From contig JAJPHN010000029.1 in NCBI GenBank assembly GCA_021325235.1, positions 186,001 to 250,000 on the forward strand: a DNA stretch of 64,000 bases. Reading direction: 5' to 3'. Below the pieces are notes generated by a model. That model worked only from the letters and a program-made list of their open reading frames with translations, had not been told where the DNA came from and did not search any database. This stretch comes from Terriglobia bacterium (GTDB lineage Bacteria; Acidobacteriota; Terriglobia; Bryobacterales; Bryobacteraceae). The translations under genes and the position numbers were made by a program. The number at the start of each line of letters is the position of its first letter. The first letter of the stretch is position 1. Shown piece after piece: positions 5,653-38,702 of this stretch.

Positions 5653-6537
5653 ATGAAACAGTGCTCCCGACGCGAATTCTTCAAGACGGGGCTGGCCGCG
5701 ACTGCGCTCGCCGGCGCCGGATCTCTTACTGCTTTCCCCGAAACGAAGGCGAGCGCCACGGATTGGGTGACGCTTGGCAAGTCCGACGTCAAAGTCACAC
5801 GACTTGCTTTTGGCACCGGCACCATGAGCGGCAAAGTGCAGCGCGATCTCGGGCAGGAGCAGTTCACGCGGCTGGTACGCTACGCCTACGACCGCGGCAT
5901 CCGCTTCTTCGAAACCGCCGAATCCTATGGCGAGATGCACAAGATGCTCGGCATCGCGCTCCAGGGCATTCCGCGCGATAGCTATCGCCTGATGTCGAAG
6001 GTGACCACCAACACCGACAACCCTCAGGAGAAGATCGATGAGCTGCGCAAGCTCGCCAAGACCGACTACTTCGATATCATGCTGCTCCACTGGCAGCACA
6101 CGACCACCTGGCCCACCGACAGCCGGCGCTGGCAGGACGGCATTCAGGAAGCGCAGCATCGGCAGGCAGTGATCGCGCGCGGCGCTTCGGTTCATGGTCT
6201 CCCGGCGCTCCGCCAGGTCCCCGATATGAGCTGGCTTCAGCTCGCCATGATCCGCATGAACCACAAAGGTGTGGCGATGGATGCCGAAGACTATGCGACA
6301 CAAGGCCTCGGAAATGTAAATGAGGTCGTCGAGCATGTGCATCAGGCCCGGCAGGCCGGCATGGGTGTTATCAGCATGAAGCTGGTGGGGGAGGGCCGGT
6401 TCACCAATCGCGAAGATCGCCAGGCCGCCATGCGCTACGCTTTTCGCCACGCGGGCGTCAACGCGGTCACGGTTGGTTACAAGAACACTGCCGAGGTCGA
6501 CGAAGCGATCGAAAACCTGAATCTCGCGCTCGCCTGA
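5653..6537 (+). CDS. Tat-signal aldo/keto reductase family protein
   Basis: The 294-residue protein begins with a twin-arginine-type leader, CSRREFFKTG followed by an alanine-rich hydrophobic stretch, which suggests export of a folded protein. The rest is an aldo/keto reductase barrel. By alignment with the usual FDTAxxYG motif, the tetrad positions are occupied by Glu87 (normally Asp), Tyr92, Lys116 (in MSKVTT) and His146 (in LLHWQ). The Asp-to-Glu change and the periplasmic destination make ordinary NADPH-dependent activity uncertain. The ATG at 5653 puts the RR motif at residues 6-7. The stop overlaps the next start by one base (TGATG), so the two genes are coupled. Confidence 0.8.
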   Translation: MKQCSRREFFKTGLAATALAGAGSLTAFPETKASATDWVTLGKSDVKVTRLAFGTGTMSGKVQRDLGQEQFTRLVRYAYDRGIRFFETAESYGEMHKMLGIALQGIPRDSYRLMSKVTTNTDNPQEKIDELRKLAKTDYFDIMLLHWQHTTTWPTDSRRWQDGIQEAQHRQAVIARGASVHGLPALRQVPDMSWLQLAMIRMNHKGVAMDAEDYATQGLGNVNEVVEHVHQARQAGMGVISMKLVGEGRFTNREDRQAAMRYAFRHAGVNAVTVGYKNTAEVDEAIENLNLALA

Positions 6538-26141: not shown

Positions 26142-26681
26142 ATGAAGCAGAAAATCCGGTCGACGACGATCCTCTGCGTGCGTCGGAACGGCAAAGTGGT
26201 GGTGGCAGGGGATGGTCAGGTCACCATGGGAAGCGAGGTTTTGAAGGGTACCGCGAAGAAGCTGCGGCGGCTGCTGAACGGGAAGATCGTTTCCGGATTT
26301 GCAGGCGCAACAGCGGACGCGTTCGCACTTTTCGCGAGATTGGAATCAAAGCTCGAGCAGCACGGCGGAAATCTTCCCCGGGCGGTGGTAGAGCTGGCGA
26401 AGGAGTGGCGAACGGATCGCATGCTGCGGCATCTGGAAGCGCTGTTGCTCGTGGCCGACGCAAAAGACATTTTTATCGTCAGCGGTACGGGCGACGTCAT
26501 CGAACCCGACAGCAATGTGGCTGCAATCGGCTCGGGCGCTGCATTTGCCAAGTGCGCGGCGCTAGCGCTGCTGGAAAATACGAACCTGGGTGCGCGCGAA
26601 ATCGTCGAAAAAGCGATGAAAATCGCCGGCGACGTCTGCATCTACACCAATAACAACGTGACGATTGAGGAGTTGGCCTGA
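26142..26681 (+). CDS. hslV: ATP-dependent protease proteolytic subunit HslV
   Basis: HslV is the threonine protease of the HslUV (ClpYQ) complex and degrades misfolded proteins. The 179-residue product has a short propeptide, MKQKIRS, before [10 protein letters not shown]. By family knowledge, the first threonine of TTI (Thr8) becomes the N-terminal nucleophile. [12 protein letters not shown] and the C-terminal [12 protein letters not shown] are typical. The start is ATG at 26142. The stop overlaps the hslU start by one base (TGATG). The gene leads an operon with hslU and a FN3 lipoprotein gene. Confidence 0.97.
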
Positions 26682-28039
26682 TGGTCATTTATCTGCCGCA
26701 GCAATCCTCGGACGAAACGCCGCTGCTCGACGAACTGACGCCGCGGGAAATCGTCGGCGAACTGGACAAGCATGTGGTCGGCCAGGCGGATGCGAAACGC
26801 TCGGTGGCGATCGCGCTGCGCAATCGGGTGCGGCGGCAGAAACTCGATCCCGATATGGCCGAAGAGGTCATGCCGAAGAACATCCTGATGATCGGGCCGA
26901 CTGGCGTGGGAAAGACGGAAATCGCGCGCCGGCTGGCGAAGCTCGCCAATTCGCCATTCCTGAAGGTGGAGGCGAGCAAGTTCACCGAAGTCGGGTACGT
27001 CGGGCGCGACGTCGAGTCGATCATTCGCGATCTGGTGGATGTGGCTATCGACATGGTGCGGGAAGAAAGGTTGGACCAGGTGGCGGACCGGGCCGAGCAG
27101 CAAGCCGAAGAACGCCTGCTGGATCTGCTGATGCCGCCGCAACCGGAAGGCGCCGAGAGCGTGGAGCGGACGCGGGAAAAACTGCGGGAGAAACTGCGCG
27201 CCGGCAAGCTGGACGACCGGATGGTTGAAGTAGATGTCAAAGAGCGCGGGCCAACGTTCGAGGTTTCAACCAACGGGAATCTGGAGGAGATGGACATCAA
27301 CCTGAAAGATGTCATTCCAGGGCTGTTCGGGCCGCGCACTCGCAAGCGCAATATGCGGGTTTCGGAAGCGCTGGAATATCTGATTCAGGAAGAGGAACAG
27401 AAGCTGGTCGATATGGACCAGGTTACGCGTGTGGCGCTGGAACGCGTCGAGCGCAACGGAATTGTGTTCCTGGATGAAATCGATAAAATCGCGGGCCGGG
27501 AAGGCGGCCATGGGCCGGACGTGAGCCGCGAAGGCGTGCAGCGCGACATTCTGCCGATCGTAGAGGGAACGACAGTTAATACACGGCATGGCTTCGTACG
27601 CACCGATCATATTCTGTTCATCGCAGCCGGCGCCTTCCACGTTTCAAAACCTGCGGATCTGATTCCCGAGCTGCAGGGGCGTTTCCCAATCCGGGTCGAG
27701 CTGAAGAACCTGTCGGAAGCGGATTTCATTCGCATTTTGAAAGAGCCGAAATCGGCGCTGGTCAAGCAGTATACGGCGCTGCTCGAGACCGAAGGCATCA
27801 AGCTCAGCTTCAGCGACGACGCGCTCACGGAAATCGCGCGCATTGCGGCGCAGGTGAACGAGACATCGGAAAACATCGGCGCGCGGCGGCTGCATACGAT
27901 TATGGAAAAGCTGCTCGAAGAGATTTCTTTCGAAGGTCCGGACCTCAAGAAGAAAACAGTGCGAATTGATGCGGCCTATGTCCGGAAGCAGCTGGCCGAG
28001 ATTGTGAAAGACCAGGATCTGAGCAGGTACATCCTTTAG
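26681..28039 (+). CDS. hslU: ATP-dependent protease ATPase subunit HslU
   Basis: This 452-residue AAA+ unfoldase feeds substrates to HslV. The N-terminal [17 protein letters not shown] is the standard HslU opening. Walker A is GPTGVGKT (residues 72-79), the pore-loop GYVGRD follows shortly, and Walker B is [11 protein letters not shown]. The I domain lies between the two Walker motifs and is charged and helical. The C-terminus ends LSRYIL, matching the HslU tail that docks into HslV. The ATG is coupled to the hslV stop (TGATG), and the TAG stop overlaps the next start. Confidence 0.97.
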
Positions 28040-29034
28040 TGCGGCTGCGGGTCGGAATCCTTTCCGCATTGGTGAGTTTGCTGTGCGGGTGCGGCTACGT
28101 TGGCCCCGTTCTGCCGCCTTCTCCGATGCTGCCGCAGGCGATCACGGATCTTTCGGTTGTCGAGCAGGGCGATCAGCTGGTGATTCGTTTCACCGTGCCG
28201 GTACGGACGAGCGACAATCTTGTGATTCGCGATTTTGACAGCATCGATCTGAGAATCGGAGAAGCCCCGACTCCATTTGATTTTGACCGCTGGGCGGCGA
28301 AAGCCACGCCCGTCAAGACCGAACTGCCACCGGAGACGGATCCGGACAATCCATTGCCCGCATCCATGTCCGCCACGGTCCCAGCAAAGGATTGGATTGG
28401 CAAACGGGTTGTCGTTGCGGTTCGGACCTCCGTTCGCAAGAAAGATCATTTTTCTGCATGGTCCAATCGAGGACTACTGAACGTGCTGCCGCCGCTCCCG
28501 GCTCCGGTTGTCAGCTATGAATCGACCGCTCAGGGTGTTCTGCTGAAATGGCCGGATCAGGGAGATGAGATTCAGTATCGCGTGTATCGCAAGCAAGGAG
28601 CCGATACCAGCCCGCTCCTGCTTGGGACCTCTTCGAAACCGGAGTACCTGGACACCAGCTCACAATACGAAACGCCGTACGATTACACGGTCGTAGCGTT
28701 CAAAGGCAAGGTGGAAAGTCTTGAGTCCGCGCCTCAGCATGTTGTGACGATCGACAAATTTCCGCCATCGATCCCGACCGGCGTGACCGCCCTCGCCGGG
28801 CCTAATTCGATCGAAGTCTCGTGGCAGCGCAGTCCCGAATCGGATTTGAAGGGCTACTACGTTTATCGTTCGGTCGACGGCGGTCCCTATCAGCAGGTCG
28901 GCGATTTGCTGACTGTGCCCACCTACAGCGATCGCGACGTGCAGCATGGCAAAACCTACCGCTATCAGATCAACGCCGTCGATCAAAAAGGCAACCCGAG
29001 CGATCGATCGGTGCCGATTCAGGTCAGCTACTGA
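28039..29034 (+). CDS. Lipoprotein with two fibronectin type III domains
   Basis: The 331-residue protein starts with a short hydrophobic leader ending LLCGCGYVGP. Cys18 is a plausible lipidation site, and the CGYVGP start of the mature protein followed by PLPP-like sequence is typical of lipoproteins. Two FN3-like domains follow, at about 145-238 and 240-331; both contain the Y-x-V/I-Y-R pattern (YRVYRKQG and YYVYRSVDG). The region between the leader and the first domain is uncharacterised. The start is GTG at 28039, overlapping the hslU stop by one base (TAGTG), so expression may be coupled to the protease. A surface-binding role is inferred; the link to HslUV is unexplained. Confidence 0.8.
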   Translation: MRLRVGILSALVSLLCGCGYVGPVLPPSPMLPQAITDLSVVEQGDQLVIRFTVPVRTSDNLVIRDFDSIDLRIGEAPTPFDFDRWAAKATPVKTELPPETDPDNPLPASMSATVPAKDWIGKRVVVAVRTSVRKKDHFSAWSNRGLLNVLPPLPAPVVSYESTAQGVLLKWPDQGDEIQYRVYRKQGADTSPLLLGTSSKPEYLDTSSQYETPYDYTVVAFKGKVESLESAPQHVVTIDKFPPSIPTGVTALAGPNSIEVSWQRSPESDLKGYYVYRSVDGGPYQQVGDLLTVPTYSDRDVQHGKTYRYQINAVDQKGNPSDRSVPIQVSY

Positions 29035-29537
29035 GCGATCAGCTCCCATATTGCGGCCAGATGATGATCGTCGTGCTCGGCCACGAAGAACAGATGGTCG
29101 ACCAGACGCATCGGCTGCTGCAAGCGCGGGTGTACGAGGGAACGCTCGAAGAGATGCGGCTCGAGATGGTCCACTTTCGCCAGCAATTCTGAGCGAGCCT
29201 GGCGGAAGGCGGATAAGAGCTCGCTCAGATTTTGCGCGTTATGATTGGCTTCGTCAGTGCGTCGGTTGGTCAGGTCCGCAACGGTCAGCGTCCCGGCCCC
29301 TAGTAGAAAGTCGTCGACGCGGGCTCGCCACAGCGGCTCCATATCAAGCAGATGTCCGGCGTGCTCCTGGGCAGACCACTTTTGTGGTGGTTTGCGGATC
29401 AACACTTCGCGCTGGGACCGGCGCAGGATCTCTTCGATCCGCGCCGGTGTTCCGCGAAGACGGATCAGGACATTCGGAAATTGCTCGACGGGAAAATGGA
29501 AATCAAACTTTCGTTCGAACCAGGGCGCCACGCTCAT
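29028..29537 (-). CDS. DinB family putative metal-dependent enzyme (first of a divergent pair)
   Basis: This 169-residue protein resembles the DinB/YfiT four-helix-bundle superfamily, where three histidines bind a divalent metal. Candidates are His in AQEHAGHLLDMEP and in the C-terminal EHDDHHLAAIWEL. Proteins of this family act as thiol S-transferases, including some that use bacillithiol, which the partial bshB1 suggests this organism makes; this link is inference. The ATG at 29537 is chosen because upstream sequence is unlike the family. It converges on the FN3 lipoprotein gene with a 7-bp overlap and is divergent from another DinB gene 31 bp away. Confidence 0.78.
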   Translation of the reverse strand: MSVAPWFERKFDFHFPVEQFPNVLIRLRGTPARIEEILRRSQREVLIRKPPQKWSAQEHAGHLLDMEPLWRARVDDFLLGAGTLTVADLTNRRTDEANHNAQNLSELLSAFRQARSELLAKVDHLEPHLFERSLVHPRLQQPMRLVDHLFFVAEHDDHHLAAIWELIAQ

Positions 29538-29568
29538 CACAGCTATAGTAATCGTGAATCCCGAGACC

Positions 29569-30033
29569 ATGAACATCGCATCAGTTTTCCGCGAGCAAAT
29601 TGCCGAAATTGCGGATCGGCTCTCACGAGTGTCGGAGGAGAAATCTCGGTCGCGACATCGCGAGGGCGGCTGGTCGAAGAAACAAATCCTTGGGCATCTC
29701 ATCGATTCGGCGCTGAATAATCATCAGCGGTTCGTTCGCGCGTCGCTCGAGGGCAAATATGAAGGACCAGGCTATTCACAAGAGGCGTGGGTGGCGCTGC
29801 ACGGGTATGACGCGATGCCTTGGAGTAAGTTGATCGAACACTGGCGGCACCAGAACGAACTCTTGTGCGAAGTGGTGGACCGCATTCCGCAGGAGCGGCT
29901 GAGCGCGCCCTGCCAGATCGAAAACAACGCACCCGTCACCTTGAAGTTCCTGATCATCGATTACCTGAGCCACCTGCAGCACCACACGGATCAAATAGCG
30001 GATCCGGTGCCGGCGCGCCCCAACTCCAGCTGA
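29569..30033 (+). CDS. DinB family putative metal-dependent enzyme (second of a divergent pair)
   Basis: The 154-residue product is a DinB-superfamily four-helix protein. The family pattern is visible in WSKKQILGHLIDSALNNHQR (residues about 33-52) and DYLSHLQHHTDQIAD near the C-terminus, which supply the likely metal-binding histidines. The ATG at 29569 starts MNIASVFREQ; a GTG 15 bp upstream is possible. It differs from the neighbouring DinB protein in length and sequence, so the two are not a recent duplication. A bacillithiol- or other thiol-dependent transferase role is a family-based possibility only. Confidence 0.8.
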   Translation: MNIASVFREQIAEIADRLSRVSEEKSRSRHREGGWSKKQILGHLIDSALNNHQRFVRASLEGKYEGPGYSQEAWVALHGYDAMPWSKLIEHWRHQNELLCEVVDRIPQERLSAPCQIENNAPVTLKFLIIDYLSHLQHHTDQIADPVPARPNSS

Positions 30034-30066: not shown

Positions 30067-30957
30067 ATGGAACTTGCCCCGCTTGCACCCGTTATCGAAC
30101 GCATCCGGGACGGGCGGTTCCAGCGATCACTCGCACTCGTAACGGCCGGATCGAGCCTGGTAAGCGGATTGGAAGTTGCCTACGAACATTACAAAGGCAG
30201 CTATAGCAATCTGATTATGTACACGCCAGTGCTGCTGAGCGGAGCGGTGACCGCGGCGAGCACGAGCGCGATCTTCAGCCGTCGCGCGGCCGAGACCTGG
30301 ATGCGCTGGACGTGCGCGATTACGCTGCTCGATGGTGTGATCGGCTTTGGATTTCACATCCGCGGCATCTGCCGGAAGCCCGGCGGCTGGAGCATTCCCA
30401 TCACGAACCTTATCATGGGGCCGCCGGTTTTCGCGCCGCTGCTCTTCGGCACTGCGGCCTATCTCGGCTTCATGGCTTCGTATCTGAGGCGCGAAGAGGA
30501 TAGCCGTATCGCGATTTTGCAGAAGAAGCCGGCGAGAGGATGGCGGCGCGAGATCCACGAAGGCCGGTTTCAAAAGCATCTCGCAGCGGTGGCGGCGATA
30601 TGGACTGTGCTTTCGGGTCTGGAGGCGTGGTATTCGCATTACAAAAGCCGCTTTCGGATCTGGGCGCAATGGACGCCGGTTCTGCTTACGCCAATACAGT
30701 TTGGCGCCTGCGTGGCGGCGATTTTCAGCGAGAATGCCGCGCGGAAATTTCTTCCGGCGACCTCGACTCTGGCCATGATCGACGGGGCAGTCGGCTTTGG
30801 CTATCACGTGCGCGGTATTGCACGGCGACCGGGCGGCAAAAAGACCTGGCTCTACAACATACTCTACGGTCCGCCCATTTTCGCACCGCTGCTGTTTGCC
30901 GCGTGCGGAGCATTGGGATTGCTCGCGAGCGTCTTACGGAGAGAAAAGCGTGGCTGA
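30067..30957 (+). CDS. Membrane protein made of two 150-residue repeats with conserved histidines, first gene of a redox operon
   Basis: I do not recognise this 296-residue protein by name. It is an internal duplication with a constant offset of 150 residues: GRFQ at 16 and 166, HYK at 41 and 191, LDGVIGFGFHIRG at 88 and IDGAVGFGYHVRG at 238, GPPxFAPLLF at 118 and 268, and RRE at 141 and 291. Each repeat has about four hydrophobic segments, so roughly eight in all. Two histidines per repeat are conserved (His41/His191 and His97/His247), at the ends of helices predicted to face the same side. The start is ATG at 30067, with a GTG three bases upstream. It overlaps the gluconate-dehydrogenase subunit-3 gene by 8 bp, so a role as electron-transfer membrane anchor is inferred. 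Confidence 0.8.
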   Translation: MELAPLAPVIERIRDGRFQRSLALVTAGSSLVSGLEVAYEHYKGSYSNLIMYTPVLLSGAVTAASTSAIFSRRAAETWMRWTCAITLLDGVIGFGFHIRGICRKPGGWSIPITNLIMGPPVFAPLLFGTAAYLGFMASYLRREEDSRIAILQKKPARGWRREIHEGRFQKHLAAVAAIWTVLSGLEAWYSHYKSRFRIWAQWTPVLLTPIQFGACVAAIFSENAARKFLPATSTLAMIDGAVGFGYHVRGIARRPGGKKTWLYNILYGPPIFAPLLFAACGALGLLASVLRREKRG

Positions 30958-31711
30958 GGATCAGGAACTGCTGCCGGTGGACCCGCAGAGCGGTAAGCCG
31001 ATTCCACGCACGAAACAGCCCGGGTACTATCCGCGGTACAGCACGCTTTCGCAGAAGAAATTCTGGGATGCGACCACCCGCAAGCTGATCGAAGAACGAG
31101 TCGCGAACATACCCCCTATTCGCTTTTTCACGCAGGCCGAGCTGCCGCTGATCACAGCCGTTACAAGCCGGGTACTTCCGCAGGACGACCGTTTGGCTGA
31201 ATACCGAATCCCGATTGTCCCCTGGATCGACCATCGATTGTTCGAAAACGAGATCGATGGGTACAGGTTTGAAGATATGCCGGACGACCGCGAAGCGTAC
31301 CGGCTGGGATTGCAGGCCATCGAGCAAACTGCGCATGCCATGTACGCAAAACTCTTTGTCGAGTTAGAGCCGCTCGATCAGGACGCGGTGCTCAAGACCA
31401 TCCATGACGGGGAAAAACGTGCGGCCCACGAGATTTGGAGCCGAATGTCGGTCGACCGGTTCTGGCATCTGCTGGTGCAGGATTGCGTCAGCGCTTACTA
31501 CTCGCACCCGTGGGCGTGGGACGAGATTGGCTATGGCGGTCCCGCCTACCCGCGCGCGTATACACGGCTGGAAAACGGTTTGCCGGAGCCGTGGGAAGTC
31601 GATGAGCAGCGATATGAATGGCAAGCGCCCGCATCTTCGCTTTCAGGTGCATACGATCAGCAGGCGGGGGCAACCGACAAACCCGTGCACGGGCAAGGTG
31701 GTACGCATTGA
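30950..31711 (+). CDS. Gluconate 2-dehydrogenase subunit 3 family protein
   Basis: The 253-residue protein resembles the small subunit (subunit 3 or gamma) of membrane flavoprotein dehydrogenases such as gluconate 2-dehydrogenase and FAD-glucose dehydrogenase. It has FFTQAELPLITAVTSRVLPQDD near residues 60-80 and a C-terminal WAWDEIGYGGPAYPRAY. In known complexes this subunit partners the GMC flavoprotein and usually carries the Tat signal for both. Here the N-terminus (MAEDQELLPVD) shows no signal peptide. The start is GTG at 30950 with GGAG eight bases upstream, inside the preceding gene. The stop overlaps the TTG start of the GMC gene by 3 bp. Confidence 0.82.
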   Translation: MAEDQELLPVDPQSGKPIPRTKQPGYYPRYSTLSQKKFWDATTRKLIEERVANIPPIRFFTQAELPLITAVTSRVLPQDDRLAEYRIPIVPWIDHRLFENEIDGYRFEDMPDDREAYRLGLQAIEQTAHAMYAKLFVELEPLDQDAVLKTIHDGEKRAAHEIWSRMSVDRFWHLLVQDCVSAYYSHPWAWDEIGYGGPAYPRAYTRLENGLPEPWEVDEQRYEWQAPASSLSGAYDQQAGATDKPVHGQGGTH

Positions 31712-33444
31712 AGGAGCCTCTTTTCGGCGCATTCCGGCAGGCGCGCAGCGATGTTCACAATCTGGGCCCATTGCAGCGCATCGCGAAAGGCACGAAGCAG
31801 TATCGCGATGACGAGGAGGTCGATTACGTCATTGTCGGCCTCGGCTCGGCGGGGGGCGTGCTGCTGCAGCGGCTGGCGAAAGCCGGTTTCAAAGTTGTCG
31901 GAATCGAAGCCGGGCCGTTCTGGGACACCGAACTCGATTGGGTAAGCGACGAAAAGGGTTCGCATAAGCTTTACTGGAACGATCTGCGCATAACCGGCGG
32001 AACGGATCCGCTTTCACTTGGCGAAAACAACAGCGGAAAAGGCGTGGGTGGTGGTTCGGTACACTGGGCCGCATTTGCGCCGCGCTTTCATCCCTCTGAC
32101 TTTCGTGTTTACACCGAAGACGGTGTCGGGGCGGACTGGCCTATTTCTTACGACGAGCTGAAGCCGTACTACGAACTGCTCGAGCGCGAGATTCCAGTTG
32201 CCGGGCCAGCATATTTTCCGTGGGGCGATCCGCACGGCTATCCGTATGGGCCGCATCCGCTAGGCGCGGTGGGTGATGTGCTGGTGAAAGGCTGCACCAA
32301 GCTGGGGATTCGCGTGTGCGCCGGCGGCCCCGTTGCGATTCTCTCCGGTTCGCACGGCAACCGCCCGCACTGCATTTATCGCGGATTCTGCATACAGGGC
32401 TGCAAAGTCGGGGCAAAAGCGAGCACACTGATTACACATGTGCCGGAAGCGATTCGCTACGGTGCCGAAGTTCGCGAGCTCTCGATGGTATCGCGGGTTT
32501 CCATGCGGAATCGCGATCGTGTGAATGGCGTTTTCTACTTCGATCGCGAGGGCCGGGAGCATTTTCAAAAGGCCAAGGCCGTGATCGTGAGCGGCTACGC
32601 CATCGAGACGCCCCGTTTGCTGCTGAATTCAGCGTGTCCGGGCCATGAGCACGGGCTTTCAAACGGTAGCGGTACGCTTGGACGCTATCTGATGGCGCAA
32701 GCCGGAAACGTCGTGCTCGGACGTTTTGCGGATCTGATTCGCATGTACAAGGCCCCGCCGGCGCACGCGCTCTCGGAGGAGTTTTACGAGACCGATCCGA
32801 GACGCGGTTTCGCGAGAGGTTTTGCCATTCAGACGGTGGCGCCTTTGCCGATTGCTTTCGCCAAGCAGATGATGGCCGCCAAGGGTGCCTGGGGCTGGGG
32901 CATGCGGCGCGTATTGATGGACTACAACCACTGGGCAACGCTCGGCGTGCTGGGCGAGATCCTTCCGTGGGAAGACAATCGCGTCGAGATCGCAAACGAA
33001 AAGGACCAGTTCGGTATCCCGGTCGCGAAAGTAACGTTCAATCTGCATGAGAACGATAAGAAGATGATTGCGTTCGGAGTGAAGAAAGTGACGGAAATCA
33101 TGCGCGCCGCGGGTGCGGAGGAAGTGGTGCAGGAGTCGCGGTACGCGCATCTGGTGGGTGCCTGCCGCATGGGAAGCGATCCGCGCGATTCGGTGGTGGA
33201 CAAATTTGGACGCACGCACGAGATTGCGAATCTGTTTGTCTGCGACGGAAGTATTCTGCCGACGCAAGGCTCGGCCAATCCAGGACTGACGATTCAGGCT
33301 CTTGCCGCGCGTACGGCCGATTACCTCATCTCGCAGGGAGAACGCATTTTTACATCGGATCGGCGGGATATGACAACTCCGCCTATTCGGTACTCACTGG
33401 CGGTGGAGGATAGTTTCACCAAAGGCGTGCCGCGGTTCGTTTGA
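31708..33444 (+). CDS. GMC family FAD-dependent oxidoreductase (gluconate/glucose dehydrogenase-type large subunit)
   Basis: This 578-residue flavoprotein has the FAD-binding GLGSAGG loop at residues 44-50 after strand VDYVIV. It also has a GGGSVHWAAF segment and the C-terminal GMC signature with a histidine in HLVGACRMG and an Asn in GSANPGLTIQA. A cysteine cluster, C222-x5-C228-x3-C232, lies where related FAD-glucose dehydrogenases bind an Fe-S cluster. The family oxidises sugars, gluconate or alcohols and passes electrons to a membrane carrier. The TTG at 31708 overlaps the subunit-3 stop, with AAGGTGG upstream; this removes an unrelated extension. No signal peptide is visible and no cytochrome c gene follows. 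Confidence 0.88.
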   Translation: MKEPLFGAFRQARSDVHNLGPLQRIAKGTKQYRDDEEVDYVIVGLGSAGGVLLQRLAKAGFKVVGIEAGPFWDTELDWVSDEKGSHKLYWNDLRITGGTDPLSLGENNSGKGVGGGSVHWAAFAPRFHPSDFRVYTEDGVGADWPISYDELKPYYELLEREIPVAGPAYFPWGDPHGYPYGPHPLGAVGDVLVKGCTKLGIRVCAGGPVAILSGSHGNRPHCIYRGFCIQGCKVGAKASTLITHVPEAIRYGAEVRELSMVSRVSMRNRDRVNGVFYFDREGREHFQKAKAVIVSGYAIETPRLLLNSACPGHEHGLSNGSGTLGRYLMAQAGNVVLGRFADLIRMYKAPPAHALSEEFYETDPRRGFARGFAIQTVAPLPIAFAKQMMAAKGAWGWGMRRVLMDYNHWATLGVLGEILPWEDNRVEIANEKDQFGIPVAKVTFNLHENDKKMIAFGVKKVTEIMRAAGAEEVVQESRYAHLVGACRMGSDPRDSVVDKFGRTHEIANLFVCDGSILPTQGSANPGLTIQALAARTADYLISQGERIFTSDRRDMTTPPIRYSLAVEDSFTKGVPRFV

Positions 33445-35765: not shown

Positions 35766-37088
35766 ATGGGGCTGAACACGCAGGCGGATACGCTTGTCTC
35801 GAAACGCTCGCAACGCTTTTTGTGGATAAGCGTTGCCGGAATCTTCGTTATTGCTTTAGGACTTCGAATCGTTCTGTGGCCCCATCAAACCAACCGCGAA
35901 ACGTTCGACGAAGTCGAAGTGGTGCAAACCGCAATGTCTTTCGCGCACCGTGGCTACCTGGGTGACCCGTACGTCCTGCCAACCGGGCCGAGCGCACATG
36001 TTACACCGGCATTTCCGTTTCTGATCGGTCTCGCTTACCGGTATGCACCCGATCTTCCCACCGGCGAGGCATGGAAGAACGCGATCACGATGACGATTGC
36101 CTGCCTGCAGTTTGCGCTCCTTCCGCTGGTGGCGCGATCGGCCGGCCTCGGGATACTGCCGGGCGTTGTGGCTGGATTGCTCGGAGCGGGCATACCGATG
36201 GTTTACCTGGATTGCTCGGGAGATTTCGAGGCGCCGTTGGTGGGACTGGCGCTCGTCGCTGCCATTATCGTTGTGCTTGGCTTGCAACGCTGGCGCCGGC
36301 AGAGAGTGGCGGCTCTGCTGACCGGTTTGATGTGGGGCTTAACAGCCTTGATCTCAGCCCAGCTGCTGCTTTGCGGGGTCATTTACGAGCTCGTTTTGGC
36401 TGTTCTTTCCAAATCGCCGATACGGCTTCGGGCGAGCCGTCTGGGATTGGTCGCTGCCGGGGTCATTTTAGGAGTTCTGCCGTGGACGGTACGCAACTAC
36501 ATACAACTAGGCGCGCCGGTTATCTCGCGCGACAATGCCGGACTCGAGCTGGACATTTCCAATAGCGATGAATCCGCTGTCTCGTTTGATGAGAATCTCA
36601 AGAAAGGCGTTCTGCTGCGGCATCATCCGCATGTCAGCGCCGCCGAAGCCATGCGCGTCCGCCAACTCGGCGAGATCCGGTACAACCAGCAAAAGAAAGC
36701 TGAAGCGATGCGGTGGATTCAAACGCATCCCGGCCGGTTTGCCTGGCTGACTGCTCATCGCATCGCGGCGTTCTGGTTCCCACCGGGACTGGGAACCATT
36801 CGTCTTTACCTGCGCACCATTGTTCTTCTTGGATTGATTGGTTTATGGCTTTCCCGAACCCTTGTCAAGAACTCGCTTCTGCTGTTCGTGGTGCTGCTGG
36901 TTGCGTATCCATTACCCCACTACATCGTGCAGGCGAGCGAACGCTACCGCTATCCGCTGGATCCCGTTCTGCTGCTGTTTACCGGTGTCACGCTGGTTCG
37001 ATTGGCGGTCCTGTTACCGCTTCCGCGATTCACCGAACGGCTACAGCCGTACTTAGCTCCTTCACAATACTTCCGACAAACGCCTTAG
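35766..37088 (+). CDS. GT-C-like (GT39/ArnT-type) membrane glycosyltransferase
   Basis: The 440-residue inner-membrane protein has about ten hydrophobic segments. After the first one comes an acidic FDEVEVVQTAMSFAHRGYLGDPY segment. This resembles the first periplasmic loop of GT-C enzymes, where an Asp/Glu binds the lipid-linked sugar donor. Such enzymes transfer sugars from polyprenyl phosphate to proteins or lipids on the periplasmic face. The ATG at 35766 has GGGGAGA about eight bases upstream. The 3' end overlaps the convergent pntB gene by 59 bp. The exact donor and acceptor are unknown, and I cannot separate PMT-like from ArnT-like activity. Confidence 0.72.
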   Translation: MGLNTQADTLVSKRSQRFLWISVAGIFVIALGLRIVLWPHQTNRETFDEVEVVQTAMSFAHRGYLGDPYVLPTGPSAHVTPAFPFLIGLAYRYAPDLPTGEAWKNAITMTIACLQFALLPLVARSAGLGILPGVVAGLLGAGIPMVYLDCSGDFEAPLVGLALVAAIIVVLGLQRWRRQRVAALLTGLMWGLTALISAQLLLCGVIYELVLAVLSKSPIRLRASRLGLVAAGVILGVLPWTVRNYIQLGAPVISRDNAGLELDISNSDESAVSFDENLKKGVLLRHHPHVSAAEAMRVRQLGEIRYNQQKKAEAMRWIQTHPGRFAWLTAHRIAAFWFPPGLGTIRLYLRTIVLLGLIGLWLSRTLVKNSLLLFVVLLVAYPLPHYIVQASERYRYPLDPVLLLFTGVTLVRLAVLLPLPRFTERLQPYLAPSQYFRQTP

Positions 37089-38406
37089 CATCGCCAAAGA
37101 GCATGAGAGTCTTGTCAAGATAGTAGAGCTCATTGTCGATTCCGGCAAATCCGGGACTCATACTGCGTTTCACAACCATTACGGTCTGAGCCTCGTAGGC
37201 GTGGAGAATAGGCATCCCGGCTATTGGGCTGTTCTTGACATTGCGCGCGGCCGGATTCACTACATCGTTCGCGCCGATCACGAGTGCAACGTCGGTACGA
37301 GGGAAATCGGCGTTGATTTCTTCCATCTCGAACAGGCGGTCGTAGGGCACATCCGCCTCCGCCAACAGAACATTCATGTGGCCCGGCATCCGACCGGCTA
37401 CCGGATGAATCGCGAACCGTACGTCGACACCGCGTTTGCTCAGAACGTCGTATAGCTCGCGCAATTTGTGCTGGGCCTGTGCCACCGCCATTCCGTATCC
37501 CGGGATAATAATGACGCCGCGCGCAGCGTCCAGGATTTCCGCGGCTTCTTCAGCCGAAGCAGATCGCACCGGGCGTGGAGCATTCTCAGTCGTGCTGGTC
37601 TGAATCGTACCGAAAGCTCCGAAAAGCACATTGCTGAAAGAGCGATTCATCGCGCGGCACATGATGATGGAAAGAATGAAACCGGAAGATCCGTCGAGTG
37701 CGCCTGCGACGATCAGGAGCTTGTTGTCCAGGGCAAAGCCCATGGCGCAGGCCGATAGTCCCGCATAAGAATTGAGCAGCGCGATCACGGTCGGCATATC
37801 AGCCCCGCCTATCGGGATGATCAGTAGTACGCCGAAGATGAGCGCCAGGGTCATGAAGACCGGATAGATCCAGGTCTGTTCCGGATGGAAGATCAGCGCA
37901 ATGCCGAGTACCACCGCGAGTGCAAAAACGCCGAGATTGACGTAATTTTGTCCGCGGTAGGTTATCGGCCGCGTGGGAAGAATCTCCTGCAGTTTGCCGA
38001 ATGCCATCACGCTTGCGGTGCAGGTGAGAAAGCCGAGCAGTGTTTCAAGCACGAGCGCTCCCATTACGAATCCATGCGGGAGCCGTTTGTAGTATTCAGC
38101 GGTGCCGATCAATGCTGAAGCGAGAGCGCCGCAAGCATGAGATATTGCGGTGCGCTGCGGAACGGCCGTCATCGGCATGTAATAAGCGATCGGAACGCCG
38201 ATTGCCGAACCGACAAAAAACGCAACCAGTATCCATTGATACGTAACGACCTCATGCCGCAGGAGCGTTCCGACGACCGCCAGCAGCATCCCGAGTTCGC
38301 CGATGAGAACACCCCGCCGCGCCGTAACCGGCGAGTTCATCCACTTAATGGCCAGAATGAAACTGGCAGCCGCCAGGATGTAAAGCGCAGGGAAGAGGCT
38401 TTCCAT
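37030..38406 (-). CDS. pntB: NAD(P) transhydrogenase subunit beta
   Basis: This 458-residue subunit has nine or so membrane helices in its first 280 residues (ending around SIIMCRAMNRSFSNVLFGAFG) and the NADP(H)-binding domain dIII in the last 170. In dIII the fingerprint VIIIPGYGMAVAQAQH, RFAIHPVAGRMPGHMNVLLAEA and GANDVVNPAA are typical. The complex couples hydride transfer between NADH and NADP+ to proton entry across the inner membrane. The ATG at 38406 overlaps the stop of the preceding pntA2 gene (TGATG). The order pntA1-pntA2-pntB is the split-alpha form known from many bacteria. Confidence 0.95.
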   Translation of the reverse strand: MESLFPALYILAAASFILAIKWMNSPVTARRGVLIGELGMLLAVVGTLLRHEVVTYQWILVAFFVGSAIGVPIAYYMPMTAVPQRTAISHACGALASALIGTAEYYKRLPHGFVMGALVLETLLGFLTCTASVMAFGKLQEILPTRPITYRGQNYVNLGVFALAVVLGIALIFHPEQTWIYPVFMTLALIFGVLLIIPIGGADMPTVIALLNSYAGLSACAMGFALDNKLLIVAGALDGSSGFILSIIMCRAMNRSFSNVLFGAFGTIQTSTTENAPRPVRSASAEEAAEILDAARGVIIIPGYGMAVAQAQHKLRELYDVLSKRGVDVRFAIHPVAGRMPGHMNVLLAEADVPYDRLFEMEEINADFPRTDVALVIGANDVVNPAARNVKNSPIAGMPILHAYEAQTVMVVKRSMSPGFAGIDNELYYLDKTLMLFGDAKAFVGSIVKELSTAVAVR

Positions 38407-38702
38407 CACTTCCTCTCGTCGCCGCGCTTCTTGAACATTTTCAGCATCCGGTCGGTTATCAGGTAACCGCTCACGACATTTGTTACGGACGCCACAACTG
38501 CAATGAAGCCGAGCACCCGACTGAGTGTGCTGGCGTTCTTTTCTCCCGTGATCAGGATCGCGCCGACCACCGCAATCGCCGAGATGGCGTTGGTGAGCGA
38601 CATGAGCGGTGTATGCAGGAGCGGCGACACACGGCGGATCAGCTCAAAGCCGAGAAATGCCGCGAGCATGAAGACCCAGATCGCGATCTCGTAATTGTTC
38701 AT
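38406..38702 (-). CDS. pntA2: NAD(P) transhydrogenase subunit alpha part 2 (membrane helices)
   Basis: The 98-residue protein is the membrane part of the alpha subunit. It has about three hydrophobic helices (IAIWVFMLAAFLGFELI, TNAISAIAVVGAILI, VLGFIAVVASVTNVVSGYL) and the SPLLHTPLMSLTNAISA segment that is highly conserved in transhydrogenases. It anchors the NAD-binding part to the proton channel. The ATG at 38702 overlaps the stop of pntA1 by 4 bp and its own stop overlaps the pntB start, so the three genes are coupled. Confidence 0.94.
   Translation of the reverse strand: MNNYEIAIWVFMLAAFLGFELIRRVSPLLHTPLMSLTNAISAIAVVGAILITGEKNASTLSRVLGFIAVVASVTNVVSGYLITDRMLKMFKKRGDERK

Follow-up and report, generated by a model that had tools for sequence, protein, structure and literature searches.

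Accounts of respiratory chains usually name only a few membrane anchors by which soluble enzymes are joined to the quinone pool. Flavin adenine dinucleotide (FAD)-dependent glucose dehydrogenase (FAD-GDH) and fructose dehydrogenase (FDH) are periplasmic enzymes that are employed in biosensors. Complexes of this kind are exported as hitchhikers of the twin-arginine translocation (Tat) system, possess a tri-haem cytochrome c and contain a Cys residue that forms a disulfide between the gamma and the alpha subunit. For the Burkholderia cepacia FAD-GDH (BcGDH) PMC6719666 gives Cys212, Cys218 and Cys222 as ligands of a 3Fe-4S cluster and His476/Asn519 as catalytic pair, and it draws a parallel between the GDH complex and fumarate reductase, which has a dihaem cytochrome b anchor. 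Here we describe a three-gene locus, A-B-C, from a Terriglobia bacterium (assembly GCA_021325235.1, contig JAJPHN010000029.1, positions 186,001 to 250,000). This whole stretch of 64,000 nucleotides is called the window, and positions refer to it unless another locus is named. A-B-C departs from the FAD-GDH/FDH kind: the cytochrome c, Tat export and the disulfide Cys are all missing, and an eight-helix membrane protein of an undescribed family is found instead. With moderate confidence we propose that A-B-C encodes a membrane-attached, probably cytoplasmic dehydrogenase of a sugar or sugar derivative that would feed the quinone pool, with A in place of the tri-haem cytochrome c.

The A-B-C locus and its relation to FAD-dependent dehydrogenases

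The three genes lie on the forward strand and overlap each other. A (30067-30957, ATG start) encodes a membrane protein of 296 aa with two four-helix repeats, B (30950-31711, GTG start) a small subunit of the Gluconate_2-dh3 family of 253 aa (PF13618), and C (31708-33444, TTG start) a GMC flavoprotein of 578 aa (PF00732 and PF05199). All three end with TGA. With the start codons, which were picked manually, the overlaps amount to 8 nt for A/B and 4 nt for B/C. An earlier note on this DNA had called A translationally coupled to B and C. The same note had described B as a gluconate 2-dehydrogenase subunit-3-type protein, had placed a Cys cluster of C at the Fe-S site of FAD-GDHs and had seen neither a cytochrome c gene nor a Tat signal. 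Each of these statements was borne out by the comparisons given in the following, and the observation proved to be stronger than the note had put it.

A contig scan with a seven-row alignment of A found 91 relatives, of which 80 GTDB loci were kept. B adjoins A in all of them and C is present in 77; in the other three the contig breaks off within B or shortly behind it (L063, L068 and L080). Wherever all three genes occur their order is A-B-C, except for L067 with the order B-C-A. Gaps of at most 20 nt were found between A and B in 66/79 and between B and C in 63/76 cases, again with manually picked starts. The close homologues of A are referred to as the GMC branch. Alignments comprised the window and 62 of the 80 loci for A (alignment A2, which left out L060, L100 and 16 others, mostly near-copies), 16 of the 80 loci for B (alignment A4), and the window together with 67 of the 77 loci for C (sequences longer than 500 aa).

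The linkage was also seen at the level of genomes. Of 150 genomes from the same order as the window, seven contained a C homologue that was close (E up to 1e-150, identity 70-100%), and it is these seven that carry a GMC-branch A. In a sample of 396 genomes of the phylum, a GMC-branch A was found in eight and A-B-C in seven, i.e. in the window's genome and six others. The earlier note had named homologues of A lying mainly away from GMC and subunit-3 genes as an argument against its proposal; instead, the partners stand beside A at 80/80 loci and in 7/8 GMC-branch genomes, the exception being a genome (G460) that is discussed below.

B matched PF13618 with 92.3 bits (gathering cut-off 23.4, E 4.3e-26). 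It shares this family with complexes of the gluconate 2-dehydrogenase type, but lacks the Tat signal of the other eight members in its genome. With regard to a gamma-subunit fold as in BcGDH, neither a sequence (profile) match nor a fold match of B was found in the PDB, but the model of B, obtained from 17 rows, was weak (pLDDT 74.5).

C has its best PDB matches in the large subunit of fructose dehydrogenase (8k6k, E 2.5e-55) and in the Burkholderia FAD-glucose dehydrogenase (6a2u, E 6.2e-55). It possesses the C-x5-C-x3-C motif, the catalytic His/Asn pair and the FAD-His position of these enzymes. In particular, Cys222, Cys228 and Cys232 (32371-32403) align with the cluster ligands Cys212/218/222 of the Burkholderia enzyme and are invariant in 68/68 sequences, from which we infer a 3Fe-4S cluster on these residues. 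His481 (33148-33150) and Asn524 (33277-33279), also kept in 68/68, align with His476 and Asn519 of BcGDH. His119, likewise invariant (68/68), was equated by motif position with the FAD-bound His105 of BcGDH, and Cys196 shows the same conservation (68/68). At the position of the BcGDH Cys that forms the disulfide with the small subunit, C has Ile in all 68 sequences.

A CxxCH motif was found in none of the A, B or C rows of the 80 loci, and no cytochrome c gene was found near A-B-C on the same strand within 1.5 kb. Same-strand open reading frames (ORFs) of at least 70 aa with a CxxCH occurred within this distance at 7/77 loci; they contained one motif each and were judged to be chance frames.

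A membrane protein family with paired histidines

The two repeats of A were delimited by a blastp comparison of its halves, in which residues 13-144 (30103-30498, forward strand) and 163-294 (30553-30948, forward strand) aligned without a gap at an offset of 150 residues. Over 132 positions 61 residues are identical (46%) and 85 similar (E 9e-43). The earlier note had deduced two repeats with this very offset, and the pairs G16/166, H41/191, G93/243 and G118/268 were all found in place. A confident AlphaFold model of A based on a 63-row alignment (mean pLDDT 92.3, pTM 0.89) contains four long helices per repeat, which comprise residues 19-44, 49-70, 72-103 and 123-137 in repeat 1 and residues 169-194, 199-220, 222-252 and 273-289 in repeat 2.

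Four histidines are kept in 80/80 homologues: His41 (codon 30187-30189), His97 (30355-30357), His191 (30637-30639) and His247 (30805-30807), all on the forward strand. This count covers all 80 loci, including the 18 outside alignment A2. The other two, His164 and His171, are variable. Two conserved histidines per repeat had been claimed before, with a lack of conservation named as refutation; none was lost at any of the 80 loci. In the model, His41 is positioned 3 residues before helix 19-44 ends and His97 6 residues before helix 72-103 ends; in repeat 2 His191 and His247 lie 3 and 5 residues from the ends of their helices. Provided that successive helices span the membrane in alternating directions, helices 1 and 3 are parallel, such that both histidines of a repeat would be located on one side. 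With this proviso the predicted helices agree with the earlier view that the histidines face one side of the membrane.

A had no match above cut-off in Pfam or NCBIfam and no sequence relative in the PDB. Sub-threshold Pfam names (Sulf_transp, OAD_beta) were dismissed as noise. The known cytochromes b (b561, NarI, FrdC) gave neither a sequence nor a fold match to A, where Foldseek may miss remote membrane folds. A description of A was not found in the literature searched, which lay mostly outside subscription journals and included the available parts of PMC6719666 and PMC11636273. Judged by its sequence, A is a member of an undescribed family that is built from a predicted four-helix unit with two histidines on the same side.

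At two loci the repeats of A are interrupted. In a Chloroflexota contig (L100, 5881-6914) they form two separate ORFs ahead of B and C: the first ORF, which holds the His97 equivalent, stops at 6421-6423, and the second starts with the ATG at 6474 in another frame. This split represents either a natural pair of single-unit proteins or an assembly error. At L083 a stop codon plus one unknown base lie between the repeats.

Profiles of A also find distant two-repeat relatives in Acidobacteriota that are associated with a different redox protein. A profile match of this branch to the GMC branch had a probability of 98.7 and an E-value of 3.8e-16 with the four histidines in register, and the profile of the branch recovered A of the window at E 2e-11. 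All four histidines are present in 16/16 proteins, eight of which form the alignment of this branch (A3). Directly upstream on the same strand, 13 of the 18 loci examined contain an ORF with eight CxxCH motifs; these loci, with the cytochrome followed by the four-His membrane protein, are L117 (4512-6569), L121 (8773-10972), L144 (5857-8074) and ten others. A scan of three of the 13 ORFs matched all three to PF13447, i.e. the hydroxylamine oxidoreductase (HAO) type, with E-values of 7e-25 to 1e-29. One such ORF compared to the PDB matched best to 4qo5 (E 2e-37), which we take to be an Ignicoccus multihaem protein, and then to hydroxylamine oxidoreductases. HAO-family octahaem cytochromes are the partner of this distant octahaem branch and not of A in the window. 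No report of a membrane partner of this kind for octahaem proteins was found in the literature searched. Within the genomes of 14 GMC-branch loci, the octahaem-branch profile gave nothing but weak matches (in 8/14), and their E-values resembled the ones obtained for the GMC-branch protein.

The remaining five octahaem-branch loci are one at a contig end (L020), two with incomplete membrane protein genes of the octahaem branch that may have decayed (L151, 5949-6215, and L152, 6200-6694), and two outliers (L146 and L147), at which a gene set resembling an efflux pump was recognised by eye further downstream on the same strand.

When a profile of ten single repeats was run on 386 genomes of the phylum, short proteins were matched as well. 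Among these 19 half-size hits (L200-L218), 17 occupy open frames with a length of 144-196 aa, and those of L207 and L212 form the final part of longer frames. All 19 contain both His motifs. An alignment of 14 of the 19 (A6) matched the octahaem branch with probability 96.7 and E 3.3e-10 and the GMC branch with probability 87.8 and E 3.3e-6, and the four half-size relatives scanned had no Pfam match above cut-off. Single cases of neighbouring genes include DUF3500, FG-GAP/UnbV and phosphodiesterase genes. The family of A is wider than its two redox settings, and paired histidines are present in all members examined.

To see whether the duplication goes back to a single ancestral event, a tree of single repeats was made from every third row of alignment A2 and nine octahaem-branch proteins; in this tree the repeats of the GMC branch cluster together (97/96). 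Pairing of repeat 1 with repeat 1 was rejected (p 0.013), a result that carries a long-branch warning.

Proposed electron path, cell location and alternatives

In the proposed mechanism C would oxidise a sugar or derivative using FAD and His481/Asn524, and electrons would pass from FAD to the 3Fe-4S cluster on Cys222/228/232, both steps being modelled on the equivalent residues of the known enzymes. B would be the small subunit holding C. A would substitute for the tri-haem cytochrome c of the relatives and carry electrons into the membrane, where haem b on each His pair would precede quinone reduction. Electron transfer from C to A is suggested by the near-exclusive linkage of the genes together with the second redox partner of the A family. 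Reduction of quinone is suggested by the analogy to fumarate reductase that PMC6719666 draws for GDH. A b-type haem in A is plausible given the two invariant histidines per unit, the GxxGxxxH motif and, in the GMC branch, the Arg/Lys after the second His. The most likely role of each His pair would be to hold one such haem beside a quinone site; instead of binding haem, the His pairs may form a quinone or metal site. The path from flavin over Fe-S and membrane b-haem to quinone would follow a common logic with the Wolinella quinol:fumarate reductase, but A has no PDB sequence match and no significant fold match.

A quinone-reducing dehydrogenase with a new b-type anchor was the hypothesis of the earlier note, and it is supported in part. 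The conserved histidines, the linkage, the octahaem partner and the position of C nearest to glucose and fructose dehydrogenases speak for it, while the indications for its location in the cell do not agree with each other.

In the absence of a Tat signal, an enzyme that folds around FAD and Fe-S is expected to stay cytoplasmic. Inspection of A, B and C of the window revealed no Tat motif. Its genome encodes nine PF13618 proteins including B (contigs C5, C14, C22, C33, C41, C42, C44 and C48), and by inspection eight of the nine show a twin-arginine motif with a hydrophobic stretch behind it, with B alone lacking it. Several further exported dehydrogenases of B's type are probably present in this genome. 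A search for the Tat pattern matched 0/77 C homologues and 11/80 B homologues; ten of the latter matches are a 'TRR' within a conserved helix, that of L037 lies near the start, and none of the 11 has a hydrophobic stretch after the motif. Since B is the only Tat-less one of the nine PF13618 proteins, and since the pathway enzymes encoded nearby belong to types that work in the cytoplasm, the B-C enzyme is probably cytoplasmic.

The charges of the loops suggest a different arrangement. For the GMC branch, 12.9 Lys+Arg and 0.2 Asp+Glu were counted in the His-side loops, compared to 20.3 and 8.9 on the other side, and 57/63 rows have the denser positive charge (Lys+Arg per residue) opposite the His face, i.e. 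the histidines outside. For the octahaem branch the values are 4.1 and 5.0 on the His side and 11.9 and 6.2 on the other side, with the histidines outside in 8/8 rows. By the positive-inside rule the His side would be outside clearly for the octahaem branch and weakly for the GMC branch, whose His side is strongly positive. A periplasmic His face as judged from the loop charges is in conflict with a cytoplasmic enzyme as judged from the missing Tat signal. The conflict would be explained by an inverted fold in the GMC branch, by positive charge serving haem propionates or docking, or by an exported enzyme. In the last case B and C would leave the cell interior by an unrecognised route and A would face the periplasm in both branches, which concerns location only and fits a haem-binding as well as a haem-free A. 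The loop charges of both branches favour such an export. It is opposed by the lack of a Tat signal in B and C of the window compared to the other eight PF13618 proteins, by the Ile at the disulfide position, and by the His loops, which are almost free of acidic residues in the GMC branch and not in the octahaem branch, such that we consider export somewhat unlikely.

NrfD-type anchors also have two four-helix bundles, and A may correspond to a haem-free quinone anchor like NrfD/PsrC. Its histidines would then act as quinone ligands or proton relays, and the 3Fe-4S cluster or the octahaem cytochrome would exchange electrons with A-bound quinone. Acidic residues near the histidines of the GMC branch, namely residue 36 (Glu in 61/63, Asp in 2/63) and Glu186 (63/63), suit such proton handling. 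In repeat 2 of the octahaem branch, however, the acid is placed differently (Asp at -1), so that the acids shift position whereas two histidines per unit are kept from the half-size proteins to the octahaem branch. In addition, A gave no NrfD Pfam match at E up to 1, and no NrfD-like structure was among the 50 listed of its 195 Foldseek matches, a comparison in which remote membrane folds can escape notice. Taken together, a haem-free anchor appears unlikely. That A handles a metal or a substrate, e.g. as a sugar transporter, rather than carrying electrons is very improbable, since half-size relatives without obvious redox partners and several weak sub-threshold Pfam matches with transporter names would suit this idea but a sugar transporter fails to explain two unrelated redox partners, GMC (77/80) and octahaem cytochrome (13/18).

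Besides the loop charges of the GMC branch, several observations weigh against the proposed haem-carrying anchor of a sugar dehydrogenase. When the model of A was compared to PDB folds, none of the Foldseek matches listed (50 of 195) reached E 0.001 and no cytochrome b fold was among them, with the limit that remote membrane folds can be missed. The outliers L146 (6233-7264) and L147 (6661-7698), both on the reverse strand, have all four histidines and no haem ORF, with some hundreds of bases upstream covered. The neighbours of the half-size genes are not clearly redox proteins; a rough pattern found a helix-hairpin-helix protein at at least 9/19. G460 (L123, 9259-12714) contains repeat 1 of A only (64% identical) and no repeat 2, B and C are both absent from the 19 kb covered, and this repeat directly follows thiamine diphosphate (ThDP) enzyme and enolase-type genes. 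We read it as a decayed copy, yet it is a close homologue of A away from its partners. In the window, no sugar-acid genes were found near A-B-C; homologues lie on contigs C15 and C22 of the genome.

If A is a haem-binding anchor, its relatives may be placed in a broader context. A new superfamily of membrane redox modules could exist, with A as one branch, in which four helices and two histidines that bind haem make up a unit occurring singly, as two units in tandem genes, or as double units that were separately duplicated or homogenised. The double units would connect two unrelated enzymes to the quinone pool, a GMC dehydrogenase in the cytoplasm and an octahaem cytochrome in the periplasm. 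We regard this superfamily as doubtful; if it is real, the same fold sits in opposite membrane orientations in the two branches. The A family, which is present in soil bacteria of several phyla and has two unrelated redox partners, would lengthen the list of quinone anchors, and the octahaem cytochromes of Acidobacteriota would gain a membrane partner. A-B-C itself would be the cytoplasmic counterpart of the periplasmic FAD-GDH and FDH.

Neighbouring genes and distribution

Upstream sequence of more than 3.5 kb was available for A at 63 loci. A ThDP gene was present in 52 of these, upstream of A in 51 and on its strand in 49, and an enolase-superfamily gene in 48, with 45 upstream of A and 40 on its strand. 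In the examples scanned, the ThDP enzyme is of the PRK08273 type near pyruvate oxidases and the enolase-type protein is nearest to sugar-acid dehydratases, below cut-offs. From these neighbours a sugar is inferred as the substrate of C. They would suit the oxidation of a sugar at C to an aldonic acid that is then dehydrated and cleaved, with the electrons delivered to quinone; the ThDP enzyme would perhaps pass electrons to quinone as well. The pair of ThDP and enolase-superfamily genes recurs beside A-B-C across phyla (L021-L100) and possibly belongs to an undescribed sugar-acid route. Cyclase-family genes (8/80), a KDPG aldolase gene (1/80) and GH15 genes of two kinds (9/80 and 5/80) were too rare to point to a substrate. 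In G460 repeat 1 is followed, on the other strand, by a gene that by eye looks like a glycoside hydrolase.

A tree of 68 C proteins contained sequences from Acidobacteriota (39), Chloroflexota (12), Verrucomicrobiota (8), Vulcanimicrobiota (Eremiobacterota; 3), Pseudomonadota (3), Binatota (1) and Myxococcota (1) in addition to the window (1). The phylum labels need 10 changes on this tree with a minimum possible number of 6, and transfer, paralogues or wrong bins may account for the excess. According to record titles, loci from cultured strains belong to Acidicapsa, Silvibacterium, Acidipila, Occallatibacter, Dictyobacter and Ktedonobacter, which makes A-B-C experimentally accessible.

In the window, a DinB-family gene (29245-30033, forward strand; PF12867, E 3.9e-12) stops 33 nt 5' of A and might share a transcript with it. 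A second DinB-like gene, assigned from its translation, lies on the opposite strand just 5' of A (29028-29702). Further away, translations read by eye resemble hslV/hslU (26142-28039) and the beta subunit of pyridine nucleotide transhydrogenase (37030-38409).

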